A stretch of 64,000 nt of DNA from Nocardiopsis gilva YIM 90087 (GTDB lineage Bacteria; Actinomycetota; Actinomycetes; Streptosporangiales; Streptosporangiaceae). The position numbers and the translations under genes are program-made. This document shows, piece by piece, positions 5,509-51,730 of this stretch. The stretch spans positions 2,294,001-2,358,000 of the forward strand of contig NZ_CP022753.1 in assembly GCF_002263495.1 (NCBI RefSeq). The letters run 5' to 3'. The number at the start of each line of letters is the position of its first letter. Position 1 is the first letter of the stretch. Under the pieces are notes generated by a model that saw only the letters and a program-made list of their open reading frames with translations, ran no database searches and was not told the DNA's origin.

Positions 5509-14877
<9,369 letters not shown>

Positions 14878-14878
14878 C

Positions 14879-17800: not shown

Positions 17801-18191
17801 GGGGTTTCTCGACGCGGGCGGCGACTCCCTCAGCGCGGTCCGACTCCGCGACCGCCTGCGGGCGGTCACCGGGCTGGACCTGCCCACGACGGTCGCCTTC
17901 GACCACCCGACCCCGGCCGGCCTCGCTCGCCACCTCGCTGACCGGTTCTTCGACAACGCAGCCGGATCCGTCCTGGGCGAGGTCGAGCGCATCGAAGCCG
18001 CGATGGTCACCGATGCCCTGCCCGACACTGTCCGCACCACCGCCATCACCCGCCTGCGGGCGCTGCTGGACCGGCTCGGCGACGGCGATCTCGCCGATCA
18101 CCGTGCGGCCGCCTCTGCGGATGACGATCTGCGTGACGCCTCCGATGAGGAACTCCTCGCCTACATCGACAAGGAGTTCGGGATTTCCTGA
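14879..18191 (+). CDS. Type I PKS module 2 (KS-AT-ACP), AT interrupted by five one-base G losses
   Basis: The ATG at 14879 follows GGAGG and the previous stop. The N-terminal coiled-coil docking helix ([20 protein letters not shown]) precedes a KS with Cys207 in VDTACSSSL. The AT then loses frame. Compared with the near-identical AT of the next gene, it lacks one G in each of the runs at 16691, 16834, 17073, 17118 and 17205. Restoring five bases gives a single ORF of 1105 residues. The repaired AT carries GHSVGE and GFHS, typical of malonyl-CoA. No KR, DH or ER is present, so the keto group stays. The ACP has [10 protein letters not shown]. The C-terminus [15 protein letters not shown] is a docking tail for the third PKS. 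Undercalling is the likeliest cause of the breaks; a real pseudogene would kill the pathway. Confidence 0.88.
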
Positions 18192-18249
18192 CCGTCAGCC
18201 GTAGGAACGCCGGAGCACCGTGACGCCTGAGGGGAGAAGTGGGTCAGCG

Positions 18250-35666: not shown

Positions 35667-36758
35667 ATGCTGAACAAGCTGAAGACAGCGATCGGACCCG
35701 CCGCCGAGGCCCATCCGTTCATTGCGGCCGGGGCGAGCGGGAGACGGGTGACCCATCCGCTGCTCGTCATCGTGTTGGCGCAGGTCCTCTATGTGATCGG
35801 ACTTCTGCCGAGTCTGTTCTTGATCGGTCCGCTGCTGGAGTGGATCCCCCAGATCTCGGGGAGCAACCTCGTCGTCGCGGCCCTGGTCGGCATCGCGCGG
35901 CCGATCGTGGGCTTCCTCCCCTTCTACGCGGTGCTCTGGCTGTGGCTGCGGTTCTACGAGCGCCGGACCTTCTCCTCCACCGGTTTCGCCTTCGACCGCA
36001 CTCTGGTGACCGGATTGCTCGCTGGATTCGCGCTGGCGGTCGCGTTCGTCGCCGCGCTGATCGGCGTCGGCTTGGCGGCGGGCACCGTCCGGTGGCACGG
36101 CGCCGTGATCTTCGGTCAGGAGGGGGCGGCGGTGGTCCTTCTCTTCGCCCTCGTGTTCACGGTGGCGAAGGTCGTCGAGATCGGTATCGAGGAACAGCTC
36201 TACCGAGGATGGATGCTGCAGGCGGTCGGCGCGCGCTGGGGTAAGGCGGCGGGCGTCCTCGTCTCCTCCTTCTTCTTCGCTCTCTTTCACTTCTTCTTCA
36301 TCGGCTACTTCGTGCTTCCTGGACTGAGGAGCCACGAGGCCCACTGGGTGCTGATGCTCAACATCTTCCTGTGGGCCGTGTTCGCGGCGCTGGTGACCCT
36401 GCGCACCCGGTCGCTGTGGACGGCGGTGGGCTTTCACGCGGCGGCACTGACCATTCCCGTCCTCCTGCTGACGCTGGCCACACCGGACACCGTCGACGGG
36501 GCGGCGGGCCTGCTGGTGTTCGTCATCGAGAACCCGAGCCACTACACGGGCGGTGTCGGATTCGCGGGGCCGTTCGAAGGGCTGGCGGCCACGGTGGTGC
36601 TGCTCGTGCTCGTGGCGGTGGCCGCGGTGCTGGAGTGGAGGTCGTCGCGTCGCACGGACCGTCAGTGCGGTCAGACCGCCAGGGCGTTGCCCTCCGGTGC
36701 GCTGCGGACCGTGGGGAGTCCCAGGTCGGAGCAGAGACGGCCGAGGGCGTCGTCGTGA
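35667..36758 (+). CDS. CPBP-family intramembrane metalloprotease
   Basis: The protein has 363 residues and about eight membrane helices. CPBP/Rce1 motifs are Glu175-Glu176 with Arg180 (IEEQLYRGWMLQAVG), FFFALFHFFF with His208, and LWTAVGFHA with His257. Bacterial members process or protect peptides such as bacteriocins, or cleave anti-sigma factors. The partner here is unknown. The basic tail after the last helix runs 88 bases into the convergent metF-like gene. It is probably controlled by the divergent two-component system. Confidence 0.88.
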   Translation: MLNKLKTAIGPAAEAHPFIAAGASGRRVTHPLLVIVLAQVLYVIGLLPSLFLIGPLLEWIPQISGSNLVVAALVGIARPIVGFLPFYAVLWLWLRFYERRTFSSTGFAFDRTLVTGLLAGFALAVAFVAALIGVGLAAGTVRWHGAVIFGQEGAAVVLLFALVFTVAKVVEIGIEEQLYRGWMLQAVGARWGKAAGVLVSSFFFALFHFFFIGYFVLPGLRSHEAHWVLMLNIFLWAVFAALVTLRTRSLWTAVGFHAAALTIPVLLLTLATPDTVDGAAGLLVFVIENPSHYTGGVGFAGPFEGLAATVVLLVLVAVAAVLEWRSSRRTDRQCGQTARALPSGALRTVGSPRSEQRRPRASS

Positions 36759-37609
36759 CGGAAGTCGATGAAGTGCAGGCCGCGCACGCCCTCCAGGGAG
36801 AGGGCGTGGGTGGCCTGTTCCAGGGCCAGCTGGTAGGCGGCCTCGCGCTGGTCGGGGGCGGCGGCCAGCCGGTCGATCAGCTCGTCGGGCACATGGATGC
36901 CGGGAACGCGTTTGTTCATGTAGCGCAGGGAGCGCGCGCCCTTAACCAGGACGATGCTCGGCAGCAGGGCGACTTTCGGGGTCAGGCCGGTGGCCGCGCC
37001 GATGCGGGTGAACTCGGCGAGGCGGTCGGGGTGGTAGCAGATCTGCAGCTGGAGGAAGCGCGCACCGGCCGCGGCCTTCTTCAGGGCGCGGCGGACGCGG
37101 TAGGCGTGCGGGGGCGCCGCAGGGTTCTCGACCGCCCCGATCAGCAGCTTGGGGGCCGGGTCGATCGGGCGGCCGGAGAGGTAGTGGCCCTTGGCCAGCC
37201 CGGCGGCGACCCGGATGAGCTGGACCGCGTCGAGGTCGAAGACCCGGCGTGCCTCGGGTTCGTCCCCGGCGGTGACGTCGTCGCCCGTCATGCAGGACAC
37301 GGCCGTGATGCCGTGCAGCGCCGCGCCCATGATGTCGGCCTCCAGCGCGAGCCGGTTCTTGTCGCGGCACACCAGCTGCAGCACCGGCTCGACGCCGTAC
37401 TGCTGTATTGCGATCGCGAGGGCGACATTGGACACGTGGGCGTGCGCGGACGCGTTGTCCGTGGCGTTGACCGCGTCCACGTAGGGCGTGAGACATGCCA
37501 GTTTGGCGGCGATCTCGGGTAGGCCCCCGCCGTCCATCACGGGGAACTCCGCGGTGATGACGGGGCGGGACGGCTCGGGGCTGGTGAGGAGGTCGGCGAA
37601 GTTGGGCAC
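36671..37609 (-). CDS. Methylenetetrahydrofolate reductase family protein (MetF-like)
   Basis: The protein has 312 residues. GTG at 37609 is chosen because an excellent GGAAGGAG lies upstream. The TIM barrel is recognisable from VITAEFPVMDGGGLPEIAAK, DAVNATDNASAHAHVSNVAL, a GDDVTAGDEPEARRVFDLDA segment and FLQLQICYHPDRLAEFTR. MetF interconverts 5,10-methylene- and 5-methyl-tetrahydrofolate with a flavin. It follows the Cys-rich MetV-like gene by 93 bases and diverges from a tetrahydrofolate-dependent demethylase. I infer that it runs oxidatively, returning methyl-folate to the C1 pool, rather than serving methionine synthesis. Confidence 0.9.
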   Translation of the reverse strand: MPNFADLLTSPEPSRPVITAEFPVMDGGGLPEIAAKLACLTPYVDAVNATDNASAHAHVSNVALAIAIQQYGVEPVLQLVCRDKNRLALEADIMGAALHGITAVSCMTGDDVTAGDEPEARRVFDLDAVQLIRVAAGLAKGHYLSGRPIDPAPKLLIGAVENPAAPPHAYRVRRALKKAAAGARFLQLQICYHPDRLAEFTRIGAATGLTPKVALLPSIVLVKGARSLRYMNKRVPGIHVPDELIDRLAAAPDQREAAYQLALEQATHALSLEGVRGLHFIDFRHDDALGRLCSDLGLPTVRSAPEGNALAV

Positions 37610-37702
37610 CCTGGGCTCCTTCCGGATCGTCCTGCTGCGTCGTGTTCTCATCCGGTGGGCCGGTGGGGCCCGTCGGTGTGGTGGGAGCTGGTTGGTGCGC
37701 CG

Positions 37703-38077
37703 CTAGTCGGCGGGTGGTTCCTCGGATTCCCACCCCGCCGGAACGACCTTGTCGCGGCCGGTCAGCAGGTTGATCCAGGAGGACGTGCCCTGGAGGCGGT
37801 TGTCGACGGGTGGTCGCAGGTCGTCGAACTCTTCACGCCATGGGCGCGGCATCTTCTCCGAGCGGTCCTGCGCCTTGAGCCACACGCAGGTCATGGTCGG
37901 GTCGACCTCGCAGGTGCCGTCCTCGCGCACCCCGCCGCACGGCCCGTTGCGCAGGGACTTGGGACAGGTCATGGGGCAGGTGAGGCCCGTGGAGTGCAGA
38001 ACGCACTGCCCGCACATGCGGCAGTCCCAGATGGGCTTCTTGACGGCGTGTTCGATGGTTGCGAGCAAGCGGGCCAT
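37703..38077 (-). CDS. MTHFR C-terminal-domain protein (MetV-like, Cys-rich)
   Basis: The protein has 124 residues. It contains CRMCGQCVLHSTGLTCPMTC, then PKSLRNGPCGGVREDGTCEV and DPTMTCVWLKA. This is the stand-alone 'MTHFR C-terminal' domain known in acetogens as MetV, which partners MetF and probably carries metal or Fe-S through its Cys. At least eight conserved-looking Cys are present. First gene of a two-gene operon with the metF-like gene. The pairing suggests a MetFV-type complex able to use an electron carrier other than NADH. Confidence 0.85.
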   Translation of the reverse strand: MARLLATIEHAVKKPIWDCRMCGQCVLHSTGLTCPMTCPKSLRNGPCGGVREDGTCEVDPTMTCVWLKAQDRSEKMPRPWREEFDDLRPPVDNRLQGTSSWINLLTGRDKVVPAGWESEEPPAD

Positions 38078-38098
38078 GGGTCCACCCCAACCTCGACT

Positions 38099-38115
38099 GT
38101 TGCAAACTATGCAAC
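38099..38115. promoter_or_regulatory. Putative IclR operator 1
   Basis: GTTGCAAACTATGCAAC is an inverted repeat (GTTGCA, AACTA, TGCAAC). It lies 22 bases upstream of the MetV-like start in the divergent promoter. Its reverse complement matches the site at 39941-39957 at 16 of 17 positions. Further GTTGCG half-sites lie at 38171-38270. Confidence 0.65.
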
Positions 38116-38302
38116 TACAATCGTATTGAGAAACGCTACCGCGTGACCACAGGCTAAATCCGGCGGTTTCGTTGCGTCAATGGATATCAGTTGCGCAAGA
38201 CGAAACTTATGGCCCCTCGATCTCTTGACACCGATGCCGCCAGCGAGGGACGCTCTGTTGCGCATGGCGATCCTCGTTGCGTATCAAGTGATGGAGGACC
38301 CG

Positions 38303-39508
38303 ATGGCCGTCATCGAGAACCCGGAGATCCTGCTCTACTCGCGGATCAGGAAGTCGCCGTACTTCTATGCCTCACGCCGCCACGGCGTGGCCAAGTACAG
38401 CGTGTACAACCACACCTACCACCCGCGCCACTACGGCGACCCCGTGGCCGAGTACTGGCACCTGCTCAACGGCGTCACCCTCTGGGATGTCGGCGTGGAA
38501 CGCCAGGTCGAGATCACCGGCCCCGACGCGTTCACCTTCACGAACATGCTCGTCCCGCGCGACCTCACCAAGTGCAAGGTCGGGCAGTGCAAGTACGTGT
38601 TCATCACCGCGCCCGACGGCGGCATTATCAACGATCCGGTCCTACTGCGTCTCGGTGAGAACCACTTCTGGCTGTCCCTCGCCGACAGCGACGTCCTGCT
38701 GTGGGCCCAGGGCCTGGCCTACAACAGCGGGCTCGACGTCACGATCCGCGAGGCCGACGTCGGCCCGGTGCAGGTCCAGGGGCCGAAGTCGCGCGATGTG
38801 ATGGTCGACCTCTTCGGTGAGCGGATCCTGGACATCGGCTACTACTACTGCGCCGAGTTCGAGCTCGACGGCATGCGGGTGGTCGTCTCGCGCACGGGCT
38901 ACACCTCCGAGCTGGGCTTCGAGATCTACCTGCGCAACGCCTCGCGCGACGGCGTCCGGCTGTGGGACCGGGTGATCGAGGCCGGGACCCCGCACGGGAT
39001 CGAGGTGATCGGTCCGTGCCACATCCGCCGCATCGAGGGCGGCATCCTCGCCTGGGGCTGCGACATCGGGCTCGACACCAACCCCTTCGAGGTCGGCTAC
39101 GGCTACGAGGTGAGCTGGATGGTCGACCTGAAGCAGGAGGCCGACTTCATCGGCAAGGAGGCGCTGCGCCGCATCCGCGACAACGGCATCGACCGCAAGC
39201 TCGTCGGCGTGGAGATCGGCGGCATGCCGCTGGGCAGCTTCAACGACGGCTCGATGATCGACCCGTTCCCGGTGTATGCGCCCGGCGGCACGGAGCCGAT
39301 CGGCAAGGTCACCTCCGCCTGCTTCTCGCCGCGGCTGGAGCAGAACATCGGGTTCGCCATGGTGCCGATCGAGCTGGCCGGACCGGGCACGGATCTGGCC
39401 ATCGAGCGGCCCGGCGGGCTCGTGCCCGCCACGGTGGTCGAGAAGCCGTTCATCGACCCCAAGAAGTACGTGCCCAAGCAGGACCTGCACCAGCTCGCCA
39501 CGGGCTGA
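38303..39508 (+). CDS. GcvT-family tetrahydrofolate-dependent demethylase, DmdA-like
   Basis: The protein has 401 residues. ATG 38303 follows GGAGG. A GcvT fold is shown by VTLWDVGVERQVEITGPDAF, GIINDPVLLRLGENHFWLSL, VQVQGPKSRDVM, the folate-site segment SRTGYTSELGFEIYL, and NPFEVGYGYEV with FIGKEALRRI in the barrel domain. The layout follows DMSP demethylase DmdA more than the glycine cleavage T protein; there are no gcvP or gcvH genes here. Such enzymes pass a methyl from sulfonium, amine or aryl ether to tetrahydrofolate. The divergent metF/metV pair could oxidise the product. The substrate is unknown; betaine feeding the adjacent dimethylglycine oxidase is one possibility. Confidence 0.8.
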   Translation: MAVIENPEILLYSRIRKSPYFYASRRHGVAKYSVYNHTYHPRHYGDPVAEYWHLLNGVTLWDVGVERQVEITGPDAFTFTNMLVPRDLTKCKVGQCKYVFITAPDGGIINDPVLLRLGENHFWLSLADSDVLLWAQGLAYNSGLDVTIREADVGPVQVQGPKSRDVMVDLFGERILDIGYYYCAEFELDGMRVVVSRTGYTSELGFEIYLRNASRDGVRLWDRVIEAGTPHGIEVIGPCHIRRIEGGILAWGCDIGLDTNPFEVGYGYEVSWMVDLKQEADFIGKEALRRIRDNGIDRKLVGVEIGGMPLGSFNDGSMIDPFPVYAPGGTEPIGKVTSACFSPRLEQNIGFAMVPIELAGPGTDLAIERPGGLVPATVVEKPFIDPKKYVPKQDLHQLATG

Positions 39509-39726
39509 GCGTACCCGGTGCGGGTGCCGGCGGCCGCGCGGCACCGACGGCGGTGAGCGGCGGGTGACGGCGCGCCGCGGGGTGCGGGGGTGCCACCCCG
39601 CGCCCCGCGGCTGCGCCCTGTGCTGTCTCGTGGGGCACAACTGGCGCCGCGCCCCGGACCTGCCCTGGTGTCCGGGGCGCGGGCTGCGTTGTCCTCCTGC
39701 GCCGTCGCGCTGATCAGCCGCGGCGG

Positions 39727-39864
39727 CTCCGCCTCCGCTTTGGTGTCCCGGGTGACCGGGATGTGCCGGAACTCCGCGCGGTAGGAGGCGGCCAGCGTCG
39801 CGGCGTCGGGATGGCTGGAGACCACCAGCGGGACCTCAATGCCGAGCGTGCCCCACCGGCGTCG
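39727..39864 (-). pseudogene. Remnant of formyltetrahydrofolate deformylase (purU)
   Basis: In frame on the minus strand it reads RRRWGTLGIEVPLVVSSHPD, then AATLAASYRAEFRHIPVTRD, then TKAEAE. This matches the central PurU segment (LGIEIPLVVSNHPD ... FHHIPVTxDTKAEAE). Only about 46 of roughly 285 codons survive, with unrelated sequence on both sides. PurU genes are common in sarcosine oxidase clusters, where they release tetrahydrofolate. Confidence 0.75.
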
Positions 39865-39940: not shown

Positions 39941-39957
39941 GTTGCATAGTTAGCAAC
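39941..39957. promoter_or_regulatory. Putative IclR operator 2
   Basis: GTTGCATAGTTAGCAAC has arms GTTGC and GCAAC. It differs at one base from the reverse complement of the 38099 site. It lies about 180 bases before the dimethylglycine oxidase start, so one regulator could act on both operons. Confidence 0.65.
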
Positions 39958-40133
39958 TCATCCCTGTATATGAAACACTGAGAGCTCGCGTGGTGTTCCG
40001 TCGCGGGGCGTGCGGCATGCGAAAAGAGGCGAGAATCCGCCCCTTGACAGCGCGCCTCGGTGCGTCGGACCCTGTTGCGTAACACGCTGGTTGTTGCGCT
40101 GATAGAAACTCCGACGGTGAAGGTAGGGCTGCC

Positions 40134-42617
40134 ATGGCCGCACCTCGTCCCGCCCCTCGGACCGTCCCCCGAATCGTGATCATCGGCGCGGGTATCGTCG
40201 GCTGCGCGCTCGCCGACGAACTCACCGTGCGCGGCTACACCGACGTCACCGTGGTCGACCAGGGCGATCTCTACCGCACCGGAGGCTCCACCTCCCACGC
40301 TCCCGGCCTGGTGTTCCAGACCAACGGCGCCAAGACCATGTCCGACTTCGCCGACTACACCGTGCGCAAGTACGGCGCGCTGCGCACGGCCGACGACCGC
40401 CCCTGCTTCAACCCCGTCGGCGGACTGGAACTGGCCGCCACCCCCGAACGCCTCGACGAGCTGCACCGCCGCTGTGGCTGGGCGCGCTCCTGGGGGATCG
40501 AGGCCCAGGTGCTCGACCCGGACGCCTGCGCCGCCGCCCACCCCCTCGTCCACGCCGACCGCGTCCTCGGCGGCCTGCACACGCCCACCGACGGCCTGGC
40601 CGCGGCGCTCCCGGCCGCGCGCGCCCAGGGCGAGGCCGCCATCCTGCGCGGGGCGCGCTTCCTGGCCCGGCACCGCGTCCTCGACGTCGAGACCACCGGT
40701 GGGCGGGTCACCGGCGTCGTCACCGACCAGGGCAACATCCCCGCCGACCTGGTGGTCTGCTGCGCGGGGATGTGGGGCCCGCGCATCACCCGCATGGTCG
40801 GGATGACGCTTCCGCTCACCCCCCTCGCGCACCAGTTCGGCTGGACCGGCCCGGTCCCCGCGCTCGCCGGGGCCCCGGCCGAGGCCGTCCACCCGATCCT
40901 GCGCCACCAGGAACACGACCTGTACTACCGGGAGAAGTTCGACCGCGTCGGCGTCGGCTACTACGGCCACCGGCCCATGCCCGTCGACCCCGACGCCATC
41001 GGCGCCCCCGGCCCGGCGGACGACGAGGGCATGCCCTCGGAGCAGCCGTTCACCCCCGTCGACTTCGACCCGGCGTGGACCGCCACCCTCGACCTGCTCC
41101 CCGACCTCGCCGAGACCAAGCTCGACGAGGGCATCAACGGGCTGTTCTCCTTTACCCCCGACAACATGCCGCTGCTCGGGGAGTCGCCCGACGTCGCGGG
41201 GTTCTGGGTGGCCGAGGCCGTCTGGATCACCCACTCTGCCGGGGTCGCACGCGCCGTGGCCGAGTGGATCGTCGACGGCACCTCCACCTTCGACCTGCAC
41301 GCTTGCGACATCAACCGGTTCCAGCGCCACCAGCTCGCCCCCGGCTACCTGCTCGAACGCGACTGCCAGAACTTCGTGGAGGTCTACGACGCCCTCCACC
41401 CGCTCCAGCCGATGGAGGAGCCCCGCCCGCTGCGCGTCGCCCCCTTCCACTCCCGCCAGCACGAGCTCGGCGCCTTCTTCCTGGAAGCCAACGGCTGGGA
41501 GCGCCCGCACTGGTACGAGGCCAACGCCGACCTGGTCGAGGGGCGCGGCATCACCCCGCCCGGGCCGTGGGCCGCGCGCTACTGGTCGCCGATCGTCGGC
41601 GCCGAGGCCCAGGTCACCCGCGAGCGCGTGGCGATGTACGACATGTCCTCGCTGATGCGGCTGGAGGTCACCGGCCCCGGCGCCGCCGCGTTCCTCAACC
41701 GCATGACCACCGGCCGCGCCGAGCGCACCCCCGGCTTCGTCGCCTACTGCCTGCTGCTCGACGCCACCGGGCGGCTGCGCGGCGACATCACGATGGCCCG
41801 GATCACCCACGACCACTACCAGCTGGGCGTCAACAGCCCCCTGGACCTGGACTGGCTCCGCCGCCACCTGCCGTCCGACGGCTCCGTCCAGGTGCAGGAC
41901 ATCACCGCCCGCACCACCTGCATCGGGCTGTGGGGGCCGCGCGCCCGCCAGCTCATGCAGCCGCTGGCCGACCACGACCTGTCCAACCACGGCCTGCGCT
42001 ACTTCCGCTGCGCGCGCATGCACGTGGGCGAGGTGCCGGTGCTGGCGATGCGCGTCTCCTATGTCGGTGAACTGGGCTGGGAGCTCTACACCACGCCCGA
42101 CCTGGGCCTGCGGCTCTGGGACACGCTCTGGCGGGCCGGGCGGCCGCTCGGGGTCATCGCCGCCGGGCGCGGCGCCTTCAACAGCCTCCGGCTGGAGAAG
42201 GGCTACCGCGCGTTCGGCGTGGAGATGACCGACGAGCACGACCCCTACGAGGCCGGACTCGGCTTCGCCCTGCGCATGGCCAAGGACGACTTCCTCGGGC
42301 GCGACGCCCTGGCGGCGCGCGACCCGGGCGCGGTCCAGCGCCGGTTGTGCTGCCTGACCACCACGCCCGATCCCGCCGACACCGTCATGGGCGGCGAACC
42401 CGTCTACCTCCCCGGCGAGGACGGCACCGCCGCCGGGTACGTCACCAGCGCCGCCTACGGCCACACGCTCGGCACCGGCATCGCCTACGCCTGGCTGCCC
42501 GCCGACCGCGCCGAGCCCGGCACCCAGCTGGAGATCGGCTACTTCGACCGGCGCATCCCGGCCACCGTGGCCACCGACCCCCTGTTCGACCCCGAGATGG
42601 CGAGGCTGCGCGCATGA
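40134..42617 (+). CDS. Dimethylglycine oxidase (FAD and tetrahydrofolate domains)
   Basis: The protein has 827 residues, matching the ~830 of Arthrobacter dimethylglycine oxidase. The N-terminal DAO domain starts [20 protein letters not shown] and has [35 protein letters not shown] and [13 protein letters not shown]. The C-terminal GcvT-like domain has [33 protein letters not shown]-type sequence ([15 protein letters not shown]), and ends [13 protein letters not shown]. The flavin half oxidises dimethylglycine to sarcosine; the iminium product passes to the folate half, giving methylenetetrahydrofolate. First gene of an operon with soxBDAG; its stop overlaps the soxB start (ATGA). Confidence 0.93.
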
Positions 42618-43816
42618 TCGGCGACGCATCCCTGTGGCGGAAGCGCGACCCGGACGACCACTACGACGTGGTCATCGTCGGCTCGGGCGGGCACGGCCTG
42701 GCCACCGCCTACTACCTGGCGCGCGAACACGGCATCCGCGACGTCGCGGTGCTGGAGCGCGGCTGGCTGGCCGGCGGCAACATGGCCCGCAACACGGCCA
42801 TCATCCGCTCCAACTACCTGTGGGACGCCAGCGCCGGGATCTACGAGCACGCGCTGGGCCTGTGGGAGGGGCTGGAGGAGGAGCTCGGCCGCCCCATGCT
42901 GCTCAGCCAGCGCGGCGTGCTCAACCTCGCGCACACCACCCACGACGTCCGCGAGTCCGTGCGGCGGGTCAACGCCAACCGGCTCAACGGCATCGACGCC
43001 GAATGGCTGGGGCCCGAGGAGGTCAAGAAGCTCGTCCCCATCATCGACACCACCCCCGCCCTGCGCTACCCGGTGCTGGGCGCCACCTACCAGCCGCGCG
43101 CCGGTATCGCCAAGCACGACCTCGTGGCCTGGGCGTTCGCAGCTGCGGCCGACGCGCTCGGCGTCCACATGATCGAGGACTGCGAGGTCACCGGCTTCCA
43201 GCGGAGCGGCGACCGCGTCGTCGGCGTGCACACGAGCCGCGGCCCCATCGGCGCGGGCAAGGTCGCGCTGTGCGCCGCCGGGCACACCTCCGTCCTGGCC
43301 GAGCGCCTGGGCCTGCGCCTGCCGGTGCAGAGCCACCCGCTGCAGGCCATGGTCACCCAGCTGCTGGAACCGGTCATCGACACGGTGGTCATGTCCAGCG
43401 CCGTGCACGTCTACGTCAGCCAGGCCGACAAGGGAGAGCTCGTCCTGGGCGCCGGTATCGACGCCTACAACGGCTACGGCCAGCGCGGCTCGTTCTGCAC
43501 CATCGAGCACCAGGTCGCGGCGGCCGTCGCGCTCTTCCCGATCCTCGAGCACGCCCAGCTGCTGCGCACCTGGGGCGGCATCGTCGACGTCACCCCCGAC
43601 GCCTCACCCATCATCGGCCCCACCCCGTTCGAGGGCCTCTACCTGAACTGCGGGTGGGGCACGGGCGGGTTCAAGGCCACCCCCGGCGCGGGGCACGTCT
43701 TCGCCGACACCATCGCCAACGACCGCCCGCATCCGCTGGCCGCGCCCTTCGGGCTGGAGCGGTTCACCACGGGGGCACTGGTCGACGAACACGGCGCCGC
43801 GGCCGTCGCCCATTGA
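42614..43816 (+). CDS. soxB: Sarcosine oxidase beta subunit
   Basis: The protein has 400 residues. The DAO fold has [60 protein letters not shown] and [20 protein letters not shown], the hallmarks of heterotetrameric SoxB. It binds substrate, FAD and (with the alpha subunit) FMN. It oxidises sarcosine to glycine with formation of methylenetetrahydrofolate and H2O2. Its start overlaps the preceding stop by four bases. Confidence 0.95.
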
Positions 43817-43860: not shown

Positions 43861-44211
43861 ATGCTGCTCATCCCCTGCCCCTGGTGCGGCCCCCGGGACG
43901 AGGCCGAATTCCGCTACGGCGGCCAGGCGGGCGTCGCCTACCCGCGCGATCCCTGGGCCCTGGACGACGGCGCCTGGGCCGAGTTCCTGTTCGTCCGGGA
44001 CAACCCCAAGGGATGGTTCGCCGAGCGCTGGTTCCACACCGCCGGGTGCCGCCGCTGGTGCCACGTCCTGCGCGACACCCTCGACAACCGCATCGCCGCC
44101 TCCGGCCCGGCCGGGACCCAGCTGCCGGAACCCGATACCGGCGATGTCGACGAACCCGCCGATCCGGCCACGGCGAATCCGGCCCGCCCGGCCCCGGGGA
44201 GCCGGGCATGA
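43861..44211 (+). CDS. soxD: Sarcosine oxidase delta subunit
   Basis: The protein has 116 residues, with ATG at 43861 behind GAAGGAGGA. The zinc-binding pattern is CPWCGPRDEAEF near the N-terminus and WFHTAGCRRW (His, Cys) near residue 60. The C-terminal Pro/Ala/Asp-rich tail of ~30 residues looks disordered. It stabilises the alpha-beta-gamma assembly. Overlaps soxA by four bases. Confidence 0.94.
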   Translation: MLLIPCPWCGPRDEAEFRYGGQAGVAYPRDPWALDDGAWAEFLFVRDNPKGWFAERWFHTAGCRRWCHVLRDTLDNRIAASGPAGTQLPEPDTGDVDEPADPATANPARPAPGSRA

Positions 44212-47189
44212 GCGGGCGACGGCGCCCCGCGTGGACCGACCCCAGCGGGGCCGAGGCACCGGAGGTCGGCGTCGTCTTCGACGGCCGGCCCCTGACCGCG
44301 CGCGCCGGGGAGCCGCTGTCCGCCGCGCTGCTGGCCGCCGGGGTGCGCACCGTGAGCACCTCCATCTCCACCGGGCGCCCGCGCGGCGTGTACGCCGTCG
44401 ACTCCGCCGAGCCGTGCGCCTATGTGCGGGTGGACTCGCCCCCGGGCGAGGCCATGGCGCAGGCCACCCGTGTCGAGGCCCACGACGGACTGCGCGCCGC
44501 CGGGCTGGCCGGATACGCCCGCCTGCCCGACGACCGCGAACCCGCCCGCTCCGACAAGTCCTGGGCGCACTGCGACGTCCTCGTCGTCGGCGCCGGCCCG
44601 GCCGGACTCGCCGCGGCTCTGGCCGCCGCCCGTGCCGGGGCGCGGGTCATCCTCGCCGACGAGCGCCCGCACCCCGGCGGCGACCTGCTGGGATCGCGGC
44701 GCGACATCGACGGGACACCGGCCGCCGAGTGGATCGAGGCGGCCATCGCCGAGCTCCGCGCCCACCCCGAGGCGCGCGTGTTCACCCGCACCGCCGTCAC
44801 CGGCCACTACGACCACGGCGAGCACATCGCGCTGGAGCGCCGACCGCGGCAGGAGGCGACCGGCGACGGCGCGTCGGACGAGCGGTCCCGGCCCGTCTCC
44901 TACCGGCTGTGGCGCATCCGGACCCGCCGCACCGTCCTGACCACCGGCGCCGGGGAGCGGCCGTTCGCCTTCCAGGGAAACGACCGCCCCGGCGTCATGC
45001 TCGCGGGCGCCGCCGCCCGGTACGCCTGGCGCTACGGTGTCCTGCCCGGACGCCGCGCCGTCGTCTCCGGCTGCCACGACGAGGCGCTGTGGGCCGCCGT
45101 CGACCTGCACGACGCCGGGATCGAGCTCGCCGCCGTCGCCGACGCCCGACCCGCCCCCGGAACCGCGCCCGTCGCCGCGCTGCGGGAGCGCGGCATCGAC
45201 GTCCTGACCGAACACGCCGCCACCCGGACCGTGGCCACCGCCGACGGGGTGCTGTCCGACGCCGCGCTGGCCCCCGTCGACCGCCAGGGCCGCGTCATCG
45301 GACCGGACCAGACCTTCGCCTGCGACCTCCTCGCGGTCTCCGGCGGCCACGATCCCGCGATCGCGCTCGCCGCCCACACCGGCATGCGGCCCCGCTGGTC
45401 GCCGCCGCACGCCGCCTTCCTGCCCGGACCCCTGCCCGACGCGACGCACTGCGTAGGGGCGGCGGCCGGAACCCGCGGCGCCGACGCCGCCCGCGCCGCC
45501 GGACAGCAGGCGGGCCACGCGGCCGCCGTCGCGGCGCTGCGCACCGACGGCGGCGTCCCGGCACCGCGGGCCGGGAACGGCGCCCACGGGCAGGCGAGCG
45601 GGGAACACGGGGCCGGCGACGCGGCGGGCGGCACGCCGCCCATGGCGCTGTGGGCGGTCACCGCCCCGCACAGCGACGACGCGCTGACCTTCGTCGACCT
45701 GCACCGGGACGTCACGCTCGCCGACCTCCGCGCCGCCATCGAGGCCGGGATGACCTCCATCGAGCACATCAAGCGCTTCACCACCATCGGCACCGGCCCC
45801 GACCAGGGGCGCACCTCGGGCGTCCTCACCGCCGGGATCGTCGCCCAGTGGCTCGGCCGGTCCATGGACCAGGTCGGCGGCACACAGCAGCGCCCGCCGG
45901 CCGTGCCCATCCCGTTCGCCGCCCTGGCCGGGCCGGACCGCGGGGACCTGCTCTACCCGGCGCGCCGGACACCCATGCACGACTGGCACGTGGCCCGCGG
46001 GGCGGTCTTCGAGGACGTCGGGCAGTGGAAGCGCGCCCGCTACTATCCCCGGGGCGGGGAGGACATGCGCGCGGCGGTGCTGCGCGAGTGCCGGGCCGCC
46101 CGGGAGGGCGTGGCGGTCCTCGACGCCTCCACCCTCGGCAAGATCATCGTGGCCGGCCACGACGCCCCGGTGTTCCTCGACCGCGTTTACACCGGAAAGT
46201 TCTCCAGCCTGGGCGTGGGCCGCTGCCGCTACGGCGTCATGTGCGGCGCCGACGGCATGGTCCTCGACGACGGTGTCGCCGTGCGCCTGTCCGACCACCG
46301 CTACCTGGTCACCACGACGTCGGGCAACGCCGAGACGGTGCTCGCCTGGCTGGAGGAGTGGGCCCAGGAGGAGTGGCCGGACCTCTGCGTGCACTTCACC
46401 CACGCCACCGACCACTTCGCCACGGTCAGCGTGGTCGGCCCGCGCTCCCGCGACGTGATGGCGCGCATCGCCCCCGACCTGGACGTCTCCGCCGAGGGCT
46501 TCCCGTTCATGAGGTTCCGCGACGCCACCGTTGCTGGGGTCCCCGCCCGCGTGCTGCGCGTCAGCTTCACCGGCGAGCTCACCTTCGAGATCTACGTCTG
46601 CTCCTGGTACGGGCGCGCCGTGTGGGAGGCGGTCATGGCGGCCGGGGAGCCCCACGGAATCACCCCGTACGGCACCGAGACCATGCACGTGCTGCGGGCG
46701 GAGAAGGGGTTCATCGTCGTCGGGCATGAGACCGATGGCAGCGTCACCCCGCTCGACCTCGGCATGGGGTGGGCGGTCTCCAAACGCAAGGACTTCGTCG
46801 GCAAGCGGTCGCTGAGCCGCCCCGACACCGCGCGCGACGACCGGGAGCAGCTGGTCGGACTGCTTCCCGACGACACGGGGCACGTTCTCGCCGAGGGAGC
46901 GCAGCTGGTGGCCGGGCCACCGGGTGCCGCGAGCGGTGCCGCGTCCGGCGCCCCCGCGGCGTGGCCGATGCCGGTCGCGCCCCCACCGCGCCCGGCTCCG
47001 ACCCAGGGCCGCGTCACCTCCGCCTACGACAGTGCGGCGCTGGGCCGCACCTTCGGGCTCGGCCTGCTGCGCGGTGGCCACGAGCGGCACGGCGAACGGC
47101 TCTACGCCGTGCACCTGGACCGGATCGTCCCGGTGACCGTGACCGATCCGGTGTTCTACGACAAGGAGGGCCTGCGCCGTGATGGATGA
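44208..47189 (+). CDS. soxA: Sarcosine oxidase alpha subunit
   Basis: The protein has 993 residues. It begins with a small ferredoxin-like 2Fe-2S-fold region, here without a cluster, followed by an NAD/FAD Rossmann domain (CDVLVVGAGPAGLAAALAAA). An Ala/Gly-rich insertion lies at ~455-480 and LWAVTAPHSDDALTFVDLHR follows. The C-terminal GcvT domain has GAVFEDVGQWKRARYYPRGG, VDDGVAVRL-type sequence, RVSFTGELTFEIYV and VGHETDGSVTPLDLGMGWAV. It supplies the folate site and channels the C1 unit. The Pro/Ala stretch near 915-935 is unusually long. Its stop lies inside the start of soxG. Confidence 0.95.
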   Translation: MSGRRRPAWTDPSGAEAPEVGVVFDGRPLTARAGEPLSAALLAAGVRTVSTSISTGRPRGVYAVDSAEPCAYVRVDSPPGEAMAQATRVEAHDGLRAAGLAGYARLPDDREPARSDKSWAHCDVLVVGAGPAGLAAALAAARAGARVILADERPHPGGDLLGSRRDIDGTPAAEWIEAAIAELRAHPEARVFTRTAVTGHYDHGEHIALERRPRQEATGDGASDERSRPVSYRLWRIRTRRTVLTTGAGERPFAFQGNDRPGVMLAGAAARYAWRYGVLPGRRAVVSGCHDEALWAAVDLHDAGIELAAVADARPAPGTAPVAALRERGIDVLTEHAATRTVATADGVLSDAALAPVDRQGRVIGPDQTFACDLLAVSGGHDPAIALAAHTGMRPRWSPPHAAFLPGPLPDATHCVGAAAGTRGADAARAAGQQAGHAAAVAALRTDGGVPAPRAGNGAHGQASGEHGAGDAAGGTPPMALWAVTAPHSDDALTFVDLHRDVTLADLRAAIEAGMTSIEHIKRFTTIGTGPDQGRTSGVLTAGIVAQWLGRSMDQVGGTQQRPPAVPIPFAALAGPDRGDLLYPARRTPMHDWHVARGAVFEDVGQWKRARYYPRGGEDMRAAVLRECRAAREGVAVLDASTLGKIIVAGHDAPVFLDRVYTGKFSSLGVGRCRYGVMCGADGMVLDDGVAVRLSDHRYLVTTTSGNAETVLAWLEEWAQEEWPDLCVHFTHATDHFATVSVVGPRSRDVMARIAPDLDVSAEGFPFMRFRDATVAGVPARVLRVSFTGELTFEIYVCSWYGRAVWEAVMAAGEPHGITPYGTETMHVLRAEKGFIVVGHETDGSVTPLDLGMGWAVSKRKDFVGKRSLSRPDTARDDREQLVGLLPDDTGHVLAEGAQLVAGPPGAASGAASGAPAAWPMPVAPPPRPAPTQGRVTSAYDSAALGRTFGLGLLRGGHERHGERLYAVHLDRIVPVTVTDPVFYDKEGLRRDG

Positions 47190-47877
47190 GACGACGACGG
47201 CCGAGGTTCCGGCCCCGCGCGCCGAACCGCGCAGCCCGGTCGCCCACCTGGCCGACCGCATCGGCGGAGCCGGCTCCGCCGACACCGCGCTCCTGCGGGA
47301 GCTGCCGTTCCTCGCCCAGGTCGAGCTGCGCGTCGACGCCGACGAGGAGCAGGCCGCCTCCCGCCTGGCCGGGGAGTTCCTGGGCTGCCCGTTGCCCGAG
47401 GCCGGCCGCGTGTCGGGGGGCGGGCACCCCTACGTGCTGTGGTGCGGCCCGGGCTGGTACCTGGTCGTGGACGGCGGTGCCACCGGGCGCGGGCTGGCCG
47501 CCGGGCTGTGCGCGGCGCTGGGCGGCGAGTACGGCGCGGTGTGCGGCAGCGTCGTCGACGTCTCCGGGCAGCGCACGGTGCTGGAACTGCGCGGCCCGCG
47601 CGCCCGCGACGTGCTGGCCCAGGGCTGCCCCCTGGACCTGCACCCGCGTGTCTTCGCGGCGGGAGCCTACGCGCAGACGCTGTTCGCCACGACCAACATC
47701 GGCATCCACCACACGGGGATGCATAGCAACGGAAACGGGGTAAGGGAGAAGGAGGGATCGGAGAACGGCGTACCGGTGTTCCGCATCCTCGTACGCGCGT
47801 CGTTCGCCGACCACCTCACGCGGCGGCTGCTCGATGCGATGGAAACCGAGACCCGGGGGAGTGCCACCACGAGCTGA
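47182..47877 (+). CDS. soxG: Sarcosine oxidase gamma subunit
   Basis: The protein has 231 residues from ATG 47182 (GTG 47179 is an alternative) and overlaps the soxA stop. Gamma-subunit marks are a PFLAQVELRVDA segment, WCGPGWYLVV, GAVCGSVVDVSGQRTVLELR, the GPRARDVLAQGCPLDLHPRV motif and a terminal VRASFADHLTRRLLDAM. A Gly/Asn/Glu insertion at ~175-195 is less typical. Last gene of the oxidase operon. Confidence 0.93.
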   Translation: MDETTTAEVPAPRAEPRSPVAHLADRIGGAGSADTALLRELPFLAQVELRVDADEEQAASRLAGEFLGCPLPEAGRVSGGGHPYVLWCGPGWYLVVDGGATGRGLAAGLCAALGGEYGAVCGSVVDVSGQRTVLELRGPRARDVLAQGCPLDLHPRVFAAGAYAQTLFATTNIGIHHTGMHSNGNGVREKEGSENGVPVFRILVRASFADHLTRRLLDAMETETRGSATTS

Positions 47878-47978: not shown

Positions 47979-48851
47979 ATGGCTTCCAACGACCACCGCG
48001 CAGAGAAGATTCGGAACACACCACGAGGGGAACGGTCCGAGCGGGGGTCGGGTGGTGAAGCGGAGGCGACCAGGACAGCCTCCGGTAAGGATGGTGCGCC
48101 GGTGCAATCGGTGGACCGCGCCATCACCGTCCTGGAGATTTTGGCGCAGCACGGTGAGGCCGGAGTCACGGAGATCGCCGCGGAACTGGGAGTCCACAAA
48201 TCGACGGCCTTCCGCCTGGTCGGCGCGCTGGAACGGCGCGGCCTGGTGGAGCAGCCGGGGCTGCGCGGAAAATACCAGCTCGGTTTCGGCATCATCCGGC
48301 TGGCCGGGACGATGGCAGCGGGGCTCGACCTCACCCAGCAGAGCCGTCAGGTCTGCGAGGACCTCGCCGCCGACCTCGGCGAAACGGTCAACATCGCGAT
48401 CCCCAGCGGCGACATGGTCGTCAACATCGACCAGGTGCGCGGCTCCTCCGCCGTGGTCAGCCAGAACTGGATCGGCCGCCAGAACCCCCTGCACTCCACG
48501 TCGAGCGGCAAGGTGCTGCTCGCCTTCATGACCCGGCCCGAGCAGCGGCGGATCATGCGCGGGCACCTGGAGGAACTCACCCCCCGAACCATCACCGACC
48601 CCGACGCCCTGCGCGAGGAGTTCGACAAAATCCTGCGGCACGGGTACGCCACGGCCGTGGAGGAGCTGGAAGTCGGCCTCAACGCGGTCGCCGCCCCCAT
48701 CCGCGGGCTGACCGGCGAGGTAATCGCGGCGGTCAGCGCCTCGGGCCCCTCGTACCGGATGGAGGAGTGCCGCCTCGACGTCATCGGTGAGACAGTCCTG
48801 AAGGCCGCCGAGGAGATCTCCGCCCGCATGGGGCATATGGCCTCCGCCTGA
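47979..48851 (+). CDS. IclR-family regulator of the methyl-catabolism island
   Basis: The protein has 290 residues from ATG 47979; an in-frame GTG at 47916 is less likely. After a charged 40-residue leader it has VQSVDRAITVLEILAQHGEA and a winged helix (VTEIAAELGVHKSTAFRLVG). The effector domain has PLHSTSSGKVLLAFM and GYATAVEELEVGLNAVAAPI, with SASGPSYRM near the end. It follows soxG by 101 bases on the same strand. It is the obvious candidate to bind the GTTGC-N7-GCAAC sites at 38099 and 39941 (inference). Confidence 0.92.
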   Translation: MASNDHRAEKIRNTPRGERSERGSGGEAEATRTASGKDGAPVQSVDRAITVLEILAQHGEAGVTEIAAELGVHKSTAFRLVGALERRGLVEQPGLRGKYQLGFGIIRLAGTMAAGLDLTQQSRQVCEDLAADLGETVNIAIPSGDMVVNIDQVRGSSAVVSQNWIGRQNPLHSTSSGKVLLAFMTRPEQRRIMRGHLEELTPRTITDPDALREEFDKILRHGYATAVEELEVGLNAVAAPIRGLTGEVIAAVSASGPSYRMEECRLDVIGETVLKAAEEISARMGHMASA

Positions 48852-48943: not shown

Positions 48944-49468
48944 TCAGCCGCGGGCGCCCGGGACCCGCCCCAGACCCGCGGCGACGATGCCGACGACGCG
49001 CTCGACGAGGACGTCGGGTGTGGCTGCGATGTCCAGGGTGACGCCCTGCTCGTCGCGCTCCAGCGGTTCCAGGGCCTCCAGCTGGGAGTCGAGCAGCGCG
49101 GGCGGCATGAAGTGGTCCGAGCGCTCCGCCAGCCGCTGCGCGAGCAGGGATCGCGGACCGTGGAGGTGGAGGAACCGGATATCGGGCGCCCCCGTGCGCA
49201 GGATGTCCCGGTAAGCGCGCTTGAGTGCGGAGCAGGCCACGAGCGTCGGCTCACCGCGCCGCTCGTGCTCGGCGATCCACTCCGCCAGCGAGGCCAGCCA
49301 GGGGCGGCGGTCCTCGTCGGTCAGCGGCGCCCCTGCCGACATCTTCGCGATGTTGGCGGCCGGGTGGAACCGGTCCGCCTCGGCCAACGGCAGCCCCAGC
49401 CGCTCGGCGGCCCGCAGCGCGACCGTACTCTTGCCGCTGCCTGACACACCCATGACGACAAAGTGCAT
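48944..49468 (-). CDS. gntK: Gluconokinase
   Basis: The protein has 174 residues, with ATG at 49468 behind GGAGGG. The P-loop is MGVSGSGKSTVALRAAERLG. DRFHPAANIAKMSAGAPLTD and the DEDRRPWLASLAEWI and CSALKRAYRDILR segments are diagnostic of GntK. It phosphorylates gluconate for the pentose phosphate pathway. Divergent from the GntR regulator, with an operator-like site between. Confidence 0.95.
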   Translation of the reverse strand: MHFVVMGVSGSGKSTVALRAAERLGLPLAEADRFHPAANIAKMSAGAPLTDEDRRPWLASLAEWIAEHERRGEPTLVACSALKRAYRDILRTGAPDIRFLHLHGPRSLLAQRLAERSDHFMPPALLDSQLEALEPLERDEQGVTLDIAATPDVLVERVVGIVAAGLGRVPGARG

Positions 49469-49523
49469 GGTTTCCCTCCCCGTGTGCGGGCACGCGACAA
49501 TGTGACGTCCGCGCGCCCCGCGT

Positions 49524-49543
49524 ACTAATAGTGTTACCAATGA
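49524..49543. promoter_or_regulatory. Putative GntR operator between gntK and the regulator
   Basis: The sequence around AATAGTGTTACCAATGA is an imperfect dyad (AGTGTTACCA). It resembles the better palindrome CAATGGTAATACCATTG in front of gntP. FadR-subfamily GntR proteins often bind GGTNNNACC-like sites. Confidence 0.5.
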
Positions 49544-49605
49544 TTCGGCCCGGAGCATCGGCGCCCCCCGCGTTCGGCGCCGGTCCGGCCACAGCGAGGA
49601 GCCCG

Positions 49606-50373
49606 ATGAGCGCCCACGCCGACCACGGCGGCTCGGCCCGCCGCACCCTGCACAACCGCGTTCTGGCGGAACTGGGCCCGGCGATCGCGGCCGGCGAGGT
49701 CGAGCCCGGCCACGTGTTCACGCTCGACCGCCTGGAGCGCGACTACGGGGTCTCGCGCACCGTGGCCCGCGAGGCGGTGCGGGTGCTGGAGTCCATGCGC
49801 CTGGTCGTCAGCCGTCCCCGCACCGGCGTCCGGGTCCGCCCGCAGGGGGAGTGGAGCGTCTACGACCCCCAGCTCATCCGGTGGCGGCTGGCCGGCCCCG
49901 GCCGCATGGCGCAGTTGCGGTCGCTGAACGAGCTGCGCGCCGCCGTCGAGCCTCCGGCCGCGGCCTCCGCCGCCCGCCGCGCCCGGCAGGAGGAGCGCGA
50001 CGCGCTGGTCGAGGTGAACCGGCGGATGGCCGAGGAGGGCGAGCGCGGCGACCTGGCGGCCTTCCTCGACCTGGACATCGAGTTCCACCGGCGCATCCTG
50101 CTGCTGTCCGGCAACGAGATGTTCGCGGGGCTCTCCGACGTCGTCGCCGAGGTGCTCACCGGCCGCACGGCCTACCAGCTGATGCCGCACCGGCCCCGAC
50201 CCCACGCGCTGCGCCTGCACGCCCACGTCGCCTCGGCGATCCACAGCGGCCTGCCCGAGGTCGCGGAGGCCGCCATGCGCGCCATCGTCACCGAGGTCGT
50301 GGCGGCCCTGGACGAGGCCGACACGGGTGCGGCGGGACCGGCGGACGCTCCAGGACTCACAGAACCAGGCTGA
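49606..50373 (+). CDS. GntR-family (FadR type) regulator of gluconate genes
   Basis: The protein has 255 residues. ATG 49606 follows GCGAGGAG; an upstream ATG at 49540 would place the operator inside the gene. A winged helix (LDRLERDYGVSRTVAREAVR, VLESMRLVVSRPRTGVRV) is followed by an FCD domain with DLDIEFHRRILLLSGNEMF and LHAHVASAIHSGLPEVAEAA metal and ligand residues. It is flanked by gntK and gntP and probably represses both, released by gluconate or its 6-phosphate. Its 3' end overlaps gntP by 17 bases. Confidence 0.92.
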   Translation: MSAHADHGGSARRTLHNRVLAELGPAIAAGEVEPGHVFTLDRLERDYGVSRTVAREAVRVLESMRLVVSRPRTGVRVRPQGEWSVYDPQLIRWRLAGPGRMAQLRSLNELRAAVEPPAAASAARRARQEERDALVEVNRRMAEEGERGDLAAFLDLDIEFHRRILLLSGNEMFAGLSDVVAEVLTGRTAYQLMPHRPRPHALRLHAHVASAIHSGLPEVAEAAMRAIVTEVVAALDEADTGAAGPADAPGLTEPG

Positions 50374-51730
50374 GCAGGAAGGCGAAGCCGAAGCCGATCA
50401 CGCCGATCAGCGTCTCCATCACCGTCCAGGTGCGCAGCGTGGTCCGCACGTCCATGCCGAGGAAGCGGCCGACCAGCCAGAACCCCGAGTCGTTGACGTG
50501 CGAGAGCACCGTGGAGCCGCAGGCGATCGCGATGACGATCAGCGACAGGTCGAGCGTGGACAGCCCGCTGGTCGCCGCGACCGTGGGCGCGATGAGCGCC
50601 GCCGTGGTGGTCAGCGCGACCGTGGCCGAGCCCTGGGCCACGCGCAGCGCCGTCGCGACGACGAACGCCGCCACGATGACCGGCAGGCCGGTGGACTCCA
50701 GGCTGTGCGCCAGGGCCTCCCCGATGCCGCCGGCCCGCAGCACGCCGCCGAACATGCCCCCGGCACCGGTGATCAGGATGATCGAGCACACCGGCCCCAG
50801 GGCCTCGTTGCTGATCTGCTCGATGCGCTGGCGCGGGTGCCGCCCGCGGCCGAGCACCACCATGGCCGTGATCGCGGTGATGAGCAGCGCGACGGGCGTC
50901 TGCCCGAGGAGGACCAGCACCCGCACCCACGCCGCGTCGCCATCGACGGCCCCGATGGTGGAGAGCGTGGTCAGGCCGGTGTTGCCGAAAATCAGCAGCA
51001 TCGGCAGCAGCAGGATTGCCAGGACGGTCGACAGGCGGGGCGGGTCGTCGTGGGCTGTGCCGTCGCCGAGGACGTCGTCGGGCACCGGGAGCTGCAACCG
51101 CCGCCCGGTGAACAGCGCGAACAGGTAGGAGGCCAGGTACCAGGTGGGAACGGCCAGCAGCAGCCCGACGACCAGCGTGGCGCCCATGTCGGCGCCGATG
51201 AGGCCGGTGGCGGCGACCGGCCCCGGGTGCGGTGGCACGAAGGCGTGCATGACGGCGAAGGCTCCCGCCACGGGCAGGGCGTAGAGCAGGACCGAGCCGC
51301 CCAGGCGGCGGGCGACGCTGAACACGATCGGCAGCATCACGATCAGCCCGGCGTCGAAGAAGATGGGGAAGCCGAAGAGCAGTGAGGCGACGCCGAGCGC
51401 CAGGGGTGCCCGCTGCTCACCGAAGGCCCTGATCAGCGTGTTCGCCAGGACCGCGGCACCCCCGGTGACCTCCATCAGGCGGCCGATCATCACGCCGAGC
51501 CCGACCAGCAGGGCGACACTGGCCAACGTGTCGCCGAACCCGTCGAGCATGGTCGGCACGATCTCGTCCGCGGGGATCCGGGTGGCCACCGCCACCAGCA
51601 GGCTGACCAGGGTCAGCGAGACGAAGGCGTGCAGGCGCACCTTCATCACCAGGAAGAGCAGGACGGCGACGGCGCCGACCGCTATGGCCAGCAGCGGCCC
51701 GGTGCCGTAGGCGGGTTCGATGGCTTCCAC
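50357..51730 (-). CDS. gntP: Gluconate:H+ symporter (GntP family)
   Basis: The protein has 457 residues with about 12-14 hydrophobic helices. GTG at 51730 is chosen for the GGGAGG just upstream. Family signs are LLFGFPIFFDAGLIVMLPIV, AFVPPHPGPVAATGLIGADM, ITGAGGMFGGVLRAGGIGEA, RVAQGSATVALTTTAALIAP and SHVNDSGFWLVGRFLGMDV. It imports gluconate for GntK. A palindromic operator lies about 110 bases upstream. Confidence 0.95.
   Translation of the reverse strand: MEAIEPAYGTGPLLAIAVGAVAVLLFLVMKVRLHAFVSLTLVSLLVAVATRIPADEIVPTMLDGFGDTLASVALLVGLGVMIGRLMEVTGGAAVLANTLIRAFGEQRAPLALGVASLLFGFPIFFDAGLIVMLPIVFSVARRLGGSVLLYALPVAGAFAVMHAFVPPHPGPVAATGLIGADMGATLVVGLLLAVPTWYLASYLFALFTGRRLQLPVPDDVLGDGTAHDDPPRLSTVLAILLLPMLLIFGNTGLTTLSTIGAVDGDAAWVRVLVLLGQTPVALLITAITAMVVLGRGRHPRQRIEQISNEALGPVCSIILITGAGGMFGGVLRAGGIGEALAHSLESTGLPVIVAAFVVATALRVAQGSATVALTTTAALIAPTVAATSGLSTLDLSLIVIAIACGSTVLSHVNDSGFWLVGRFLGMDVRTTLRTWTVMETLIGVIGFGFAFLLSLVL

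Follow-up and report, generated by a model that had tools for sequence, protein, structure and literature searches.

Few osmolytes of saline soil, plants and algae are as abundant as glycine betaine, whose catabolism is entered through its first demethylation. Three routes for this step were named in a 2025 study: the Rieske system GbcAB, BHMT, and the cobalamin system MtgBC(D), which operates with MetF2 in Ruegeria (PMC12478193). For one Arthrobacter that grows on betaine, the recorded pathway was incomplete (PMC3534580). Demethylases of the GcvT fold that use tetrahydrofolate (THF) are already known, and a role in betaine metabolism was postulated without test in 2011 for one GcvT-like protein, SAR11_1303, encoded near opuA (PMC3160333). 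No report of a GcvT-type betaine:THF methyltransferase was found in the open-access literature, subscription journals being outside the search.

We analyzed 64 kb (bases 2294001-2358000, hereafter the window) of the complete 6.14-Mb chromosome of the salt-tolerant actinobacterium Nocardiopsis gilva YIM 90087, a genome estimated as 100% complete. Among named organisms, its closest relatives are Allosalinactinospora, Murinocardiopsis and Nocardiopsis. A sequence-only reading had proposed that a GcvT-fold demethylase, here called DMT, forms a unit with a divergent MetF and MetV-like pair within window positions 36671-39508, and that its methyl donor could be glycine betaine. Open reading frames and Pfam domains bore out the three genes and their divergent layout. 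The donor was supported at the sequence level by the conserved neighbourhood of DMT, by the replacement of a Rieske demethylase in the same slot, and by an operator common with choline/betaine genes. We consider it quite likely that the locus serves the folate-linked catabolism of glycine betaine as one unit. It is also reasonably probable, if somewhat less so, that DMT founds a new family of single-protein, cobalamin-free and oxygen-free glycine betaine:THF methyltransferases. Betaine demethylation would then have a fourth route. In many halophilic actinobacteria this would be the predominant one, taking the place of the Rieske monooxygenase under control of one and the same operator. The novelty would lie in the substrate and the pathway.

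DMT and the proposed folate pathway

The frame encoding DMT is open from 38180 on the plus strand, but the protein (38303..39508, 401 aa) probably starts at 38303, where a GGAGG at 38293 and an identical start in a congeneric locus (L018; L-numbers label the homologous loci compared) back the correction. Genes in the loci of relatives were called in this analysis. DMT carries the GCV_T and GCV_T_C domains of the GcvT-fold, THF-dependent demethylase superfamily. By sequence, the closest solved structure is the dimethylsulfoniopropionate (DMSP) demethylase DmdA of Pelagibacter and roseobacters (3tfh, E 9e-69), which is also the top fold match of the predicted structure, with 33% identity in the fold alignment. 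The model has a pLDDT of 69.7 and low-confidence loops near the likely pocket segments, so the pocket was left unread. Like DmdA, DMT is a stand-alone GcvT-type protein for which THF as acceptor and an onium compound as donor would be expected.

Other members of the superfamily are more distant. DMT scored 152 bits with the gcvT equivalog TIGR00528, under its cut-off of 235.85, which sets it apart from the GcvT aminomethyltransferases. LigM, DesA and BrdA, known as aryl-ether and methylenedioxy demethylases, have the same fold and THF-dependent demethylation, but their substrates are aromatic ethers, and DMT reached only 48 and 60 bits with the LigM/DesA O-demethylase models (cut-offs 580/800). 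With the TMAO demethylase (Tdm) model NF053776 it scored 217 bits (cut-off 1100), and the aligned part was the C-terminal folate part only.

Opposite DMT, on the minus strand, lie genes for a MetV-like Fe-S partner (37703..38077, 124 aa, 8 Cys; PF12225/DUF5981, 89.6 bits, cut-off 23) and a MetF-like methylene-THF reductase (36671..37609, 312 aa; PF02219, 86.4 bits, cut-off 24), the start of the latter being corrected from 37651 to 37609. Downstream of DMT, on the plus strand, the dimethylglycine and sarcosine oxidases named in the sequence-only reading were confirmed. The product of 40134..42617 (Pfam DAO, FAO_M and GCV_T) matches the characterized N,N-dimethylglycine oxidase (DMGO) of A. globiformis, 1pj5, over its full length (residues 2-812, 953 bits) and by this homology is a true dimethylglycine oxidase. 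It is followed by the sarcosine oxidase genes soxB (beta subunit, 42614..43816; TIGR01373, 603 bits, cut-off 529), soxD (delta, 43861..44211), soxA (alpha, 44208..47189; TIGR01372, 1033 bits, under the cut-off of 1164) and soxG (gamma, 47182..47877), with soxD and soxG assigned by position and homology to the relatives' genes. An IclR-family regulator gene of uncertain start (48102..48851, plus strand; PF01614/PF09339) comes next.

The presence of MetF beside a GcvT-type enzyme implies that a methyl rather than a methylene group would be transferred to THF, as in DmdA, a transfer for which the donor must be an onium compound. Among onium compounds, it is glycine betaine that yields dimethylglycine on demethylation. 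Since the product should feed DMGO, glycine betaine would be the donor. DMT would convert glycine betaine and THF to dimethylglycine and 5-methyl-THF by direct displacement onto N5, as in DmdA, with neither cobalamin nor oxygen. MetF with the Fe-S protein MetV would, judging from their families, turn methyl-THF into methylene-THF. DMGO would then produce sarcosine from dimethylglycine, and SoxBDAG glycine from sarcosine, each yielding another methylene-THF; both steps are established chemistry of those families. In relatives, as their gene content shows, formate-THF ligase (Fhs) or the formyl-THF deformylase PurU, with FolD/FchA, completes the oxidation of one-carbon units to formate. Here, purU is a relic.

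Compared with the described betaine routes, the proposal is closest in outcome to MtgBCD with MetF2 in Ruegeria pomeroyi, where the betaine methyl also passes to THF and a MetF-type enzyme then oxidizes methyl-THF (PMC12478193), but three proteins with a cobalamin carrier act there, and here one GcvT-fold protein without cobalamin would suffice. BHMT of SAR11 and Sinorhizobium also makes dimethylglycine from betaine non-oxidatively, but homocysteine is its methyl acceptor and it belongs to a different family (PF02574). SAR11_1303 and SAR11_1265, the latter encoded beside metF, are GcvT-like (PMC3160333), but in SAR11 the demethylation of betaine was attributed to BHMT, and we liken these proteins to DMT by description, not by sequence. 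If the proposal is true, a gap in the betaine catabolism of many actinobacteria would be filled. With direct transfer to folate, O2 and reductant would be spared and the methyl would be kept at the level of methyl-THF; in organisms with Fhs, ATP might also be recovered. A function would also be given to a family often annotated "glycine cleavage T protein", with more than 400 genomic matches, and a compact cobalamin-free enzyme would become usable in one-carbon engineering.

Gene neighbourhoods, Rieske systems and a common operator

When one genome per species was scanned, 406 matches to DMT were obtained. The best 80 of 406 (69-90% identity) were taken as the DMT loci for counting, and the betaine assignment is limited to this actinobacterial DMT clade. 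These 80 belong to Nocardiopsis, Saccharopolyspora, Actinopolyspora, Nesterenkonia, Microbacterium, Rubrobacter, Saccharomonospora, Haloechinothrix, Phytoactinopolyspora and uncultured lineages, with many halophiles among them. In the family of the window organism, the order MetF-MetV, then divergently DMT-[purU]-DMGO-soxBDAG-IclR, is kept. MetF-MetV and DMT followed by DMGO, Sox and IclR were found in 9 Nocardiopsaceae-type loci and in 7/7 same-family or same-genus genomes inspected, so the arrangement is not due to chance. The purU relic of the window (39712..39864, minus strand, 53 codons), detected by tblastn, aligns with PurU of the Murinocardiopsis locus over residues 115-167 at 75% identity. 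An intact purU occupies its place in L019-L022, L028 and L029, and no trace of purU was found in six further relatives checked.

Of the 80 loci, 65 had DMGO within about 10 kb of DMT, 63 had a MetF of one kind or the other, 57 had Fhs and 33 had SoxA. Taken over about 90 relatives, DMT stands together with DMGO and MetF and, as a rule, with Fhs or PurU. Outside the family of the window organism, DMT is usually followed by MetF2 (~280 aa) and then by Fhs, with median gaps of 31 bp (DMT-MetF2) and -4 bp (MetF2-Fhs). FchA, EtfBA, GlyA and SdaA also occur near DMT in some lineages, glyA and sdaA standing beside it in L061 and L097. Several loci have choline and betaine genes next to DMT: an OpuAC-type binding protein and a choline/betaine ABC permease (L026, L035), betaine-aldehyde dehydrogenase, BADH (L026, L025), betA above its cut-off (L083), and BetT or a betaine BCCT carrier (L049, L088).

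We compared these loci with 20 DMGO loci lacking DMT, for seven of which the upstream window was extended. A Rieske oxygenase was present in 17/20 of them (11/20 unextended) against 1/80 DMT loci. MetF showed the opposite distribution (1/20 against 63/80), as did Fhs (0/20 against 57/80); none of these counts is phylogenetically independent. The rarity of MetF and Fhs in DMGO-only loci is in keeping with the Rieske route releasing formaldehyde, which leaves no methyl-THF to oxidize. In L122, GbcAB-like genes lie inside the DMGO-sox operon (DMGO-GbcA-GbcB-soxBDAG-sdaA-IclR), with no MetF or Fhs. In other actinobacteria, GbcAB stands next to DMGO-soxBDAG in the position of DMT, and for the same proposed step from betaine to dimethylglycine, but its fold and chemistry are unrelated to those of DMT, and it needs O2 and an electron chain. 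Other DMGO-only loci carry a three-component Rieske system with betA, BADH, OpuA and DMGO. In Streptomyces-like genomes (L136-L143, L177-L182) it consists of an oxygenase of ~376 aa, which scores only 216 bits with the GbcA model, a Rieske ferredoxin of 120 aa and a reductase of ~385 aa, and it is probably a betaine demethylase. Two DMGO-sox loci (L147, L150) have neither DMT nor a Rieske system nearby, and no candidate demethylase was recognized among their neighbours read by eye.

The same trend was seen in a panel of 297 genomes, with p-values that ignore relatedness. A DMGO-like gene was present in 12/12 DMT genomes and in 91/297 overall (p = 4e-7). Among the panel genomes with a strict DMGO or DMT, a GbcA-related Rieske protein was found in 1/12 with DMT and 37/41 without (p = 2e-7); no genome of the panel reached the curated GbcA cut-off. 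We rejected DMGO alone as a marker of DMT, as many DMGO-like genes occur without any DMT. Mutual exclusion of DMT and Rieske systems is sound for loci and only partly true for genomes, where both coexist in separate loci.

The genome of N. gilva itself encodes no PF00848 ring-hydroxylating alpha subunit. Together with the linkage of MetF and Fhs to DMT and not to the Rieske route, this supports glycine betaine as the donor, by a route other than the usual Rieske demethylase, as first suggested. Two matches to PF02574 were detected, one inside a MetH-sized frame and the other a 299-aa open reading frame without any NCBIfam match, and neither matched an NCBIfam BHMT model. Elsewhere in the genome, BADH is encoded together with a GMC oxidoreductase and a choline/betaine ABC transporter in a choline import and oxidation locus. 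Three BCCT transporters are encoded as well.

A motif scan of the window for the palindrome GTTGC-N7-GCAAC found exactly two exact matches, against 0.06 expected in 64 kb. One lies in the divergent metV/DMT promoter (38099..38115) and the other in the DMGO promoter (39941..39957). Allowing one mismatch gave four sites, and the two additional ones (38190..38206 and 40093..40109) are in the same two promoters. Across the loci compared, the operator was found within 350 bp upstream of MetV (9/9), DMGO (34/59), DMT (28/79) and IclR (16/41), a strong enrichment against the 27/924 seen for other genes. It also precedes betA, BADH, DMGO, iclR and the Rieske ferredoxin gene in Streptomyces-type loci and lies 88 bp before the GbcA-like gene of L124. 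A one-mismatch version lies 135 bp before BADH in the choline locus of N. gilva and in that of a congener. Since the demethylase, DMGO, betA and BADH promoters have this operator in common, DMT seems to be part of the choline/betaine regulon, regardless of which demethylase is used in a given species. The IclR-family protein is a likely candidate reader of the operator, as its relatives (58-62% identical) occur in Rieske-type betaine loci carrying the same site. It would probably tie these operons to choline-to-betaine oxidation.

Other donors and other roles for DMT

Several observations weigh against glycine betaine as the donor, or against a strict replacement of the Rieske route. At least 5/20 further DMT genomes have a separate second locus with the three-component Rieske system and DMGO, Sox or GlyA genes, and Microbacterium suaedae holds both routes within one 20-kb stretch. 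In such genomes DMT may be a redundant enzyme or have a different donor; both routes may also be used under different conditions, e.g. of oxygen or salt. The Rieske count in DMGO-only loci depends in part on the extended windows, the three-component system was assigned by context, and one Rieske-type betaine locus without DMT (L138) has MetF2 between betA and purU. The search of the N. gilva genome for other betaine demethylases covered Rieske and BHMT proteins, not the cobalamin system MtgB. Finally, homologues on roseobacter plasmids (L172, L173; 55% identity) stand beside an Lrp regulator, OsmC, an enoyl-CoA hydratase and an acyl-CoA synthetase, neighbours that suggest a different donor, possibly a sulfonium compound. 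Haloarchaeal plasmid homologues (L175, L198; 42-43%) lie near methylene-THF reductase genes and DHFR or folate dehydrogenase/cyclohydrolase genes, with a BCCT carrier or FAD oxidoreductase also nearby. Judging from these neighbours, the distant homologues in both groups may act on other donors.

The alternative that survives best is that DMT demethylates another onium osmolyte or betaine, such as carnitine, stachydrine, trigonelline or another N-methylated amino acid betaine, whose product would then pass to the DMGO/Sox flavoproteins. Besides the genomes that already have a Rieske-type betaine locus, it is favoured by the DMGO-like enzymes of DMT/EtfBA loci, only ~41% identical to the window DMGO, and by the more distant DMT homologues (46-55%) with other neighbours. 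We nevertheless regard it as unlikely: the window DMGO is a full-length relative of the characterized enzyme, DMT has genes for choline/betaine transport and oxidation as neighbours in several lineages, and the operator is common with betA and BADH.

A very improbable alternative is that DMT is an accessory aminomethyl or methyl transferase for one-carbon units from DMGO and Sox, or a folate repair enzyme, with MetF working reductively to supply methionine. Such roles exist among GcvT-fold proteins, and DMGO and SoxA carry related folate domains, but these enzymes thereby already have folate domains of their own. The genome also encodes a canonical MetF (C1:2578327, 326 bits) and a separate strong GCV_T gene of 397 aa (C1:1782056), so the copies at this locus are extra, and most DMGO/Sox loci without DMT also lack MetF. 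An accessory role would leave the missing first demethylation step unexplained.

Least probable of all is that DMT is DmdA, an identity that we reject, or acts on another sulfonium compound: although the DMSP demethylase PRK12486 is its best NCBIfam match, as DmdA is its closest structure, the score of 335 bits is under the curated cut-off of 410, DMT has RTGYTSELG or close variants in place of the RSG[WY]SKQGG segment of four DmdA rows, these rows form their own 100/99 clade within a separate 97/96 clade apart from DMT (on long branches), and dmdB, dmdC and dmdD are absent from the conserved neighbour families of DMT loci, where DMGO, Sox and choline/betaine genes are found instead. A Trp was reported as DMSP-specific in DmdA (PMC7487153); we dropped this residue, Trp171, as a diagnostic, since it is Tyr in 3/4 annotated DmdA rows.

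The MetF partner and flanking genes

The MetF copy at the DMT locus can be regarded as dedicated, given the canonical MetF elsewhere in the genome. Homologues of the window MetF-like protein in relatives are also 312 aa long, and the 8 Cys and 2 His of the MetV-like protein are invariant in 17/17 homologues. The MetFV complex of acetogens is described by an NGPCGG motif and by metV upstream of metF (PMC8515935). Here, metV likewise lies directly upstream of metF (median gap of -4 bp in 9 relatives), and its product combines the PF12225 domain with NGPCGG and Cys residues for Fe-S clusters. The Fe-S subunit suggests ferredoxin or a similar carrier as electron acceptor, as in acetogens (PMC8515935). 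The present MetV is however smaller (124 aa against 23.5 kDa; PMC8515935), and the locus is of an aerobe type with an oxidative direction proposed.

The pairing of DMT with MetF and a MetV-like protein, as first read from the sequence, is therefore real and conserved in Nocardiopsaceae-type loci, but the MetV partner is confined to that lineage. In the majority of DMT loci, the single-subunit MetF-like protein MetF2 replaces MetF/MetV, and a few loci have neither. We rejected a grouping of MetF1 and MetF2 as one family, because no MetF2 protein is retrieved with the profile and the two are only remotely similar.

On the 3' side of the Sox operon, at window positions 48944-51730, lie genes for a gluconate kinase, a GntR-type regulator and a GntP-like permease, an adjacency that is kept in the family. 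Farther away, at 5575-24498, are open frames of great length (3100, 629 and 2082 aa) that, on sequence alone, resemble modular polyketide synthase genes.

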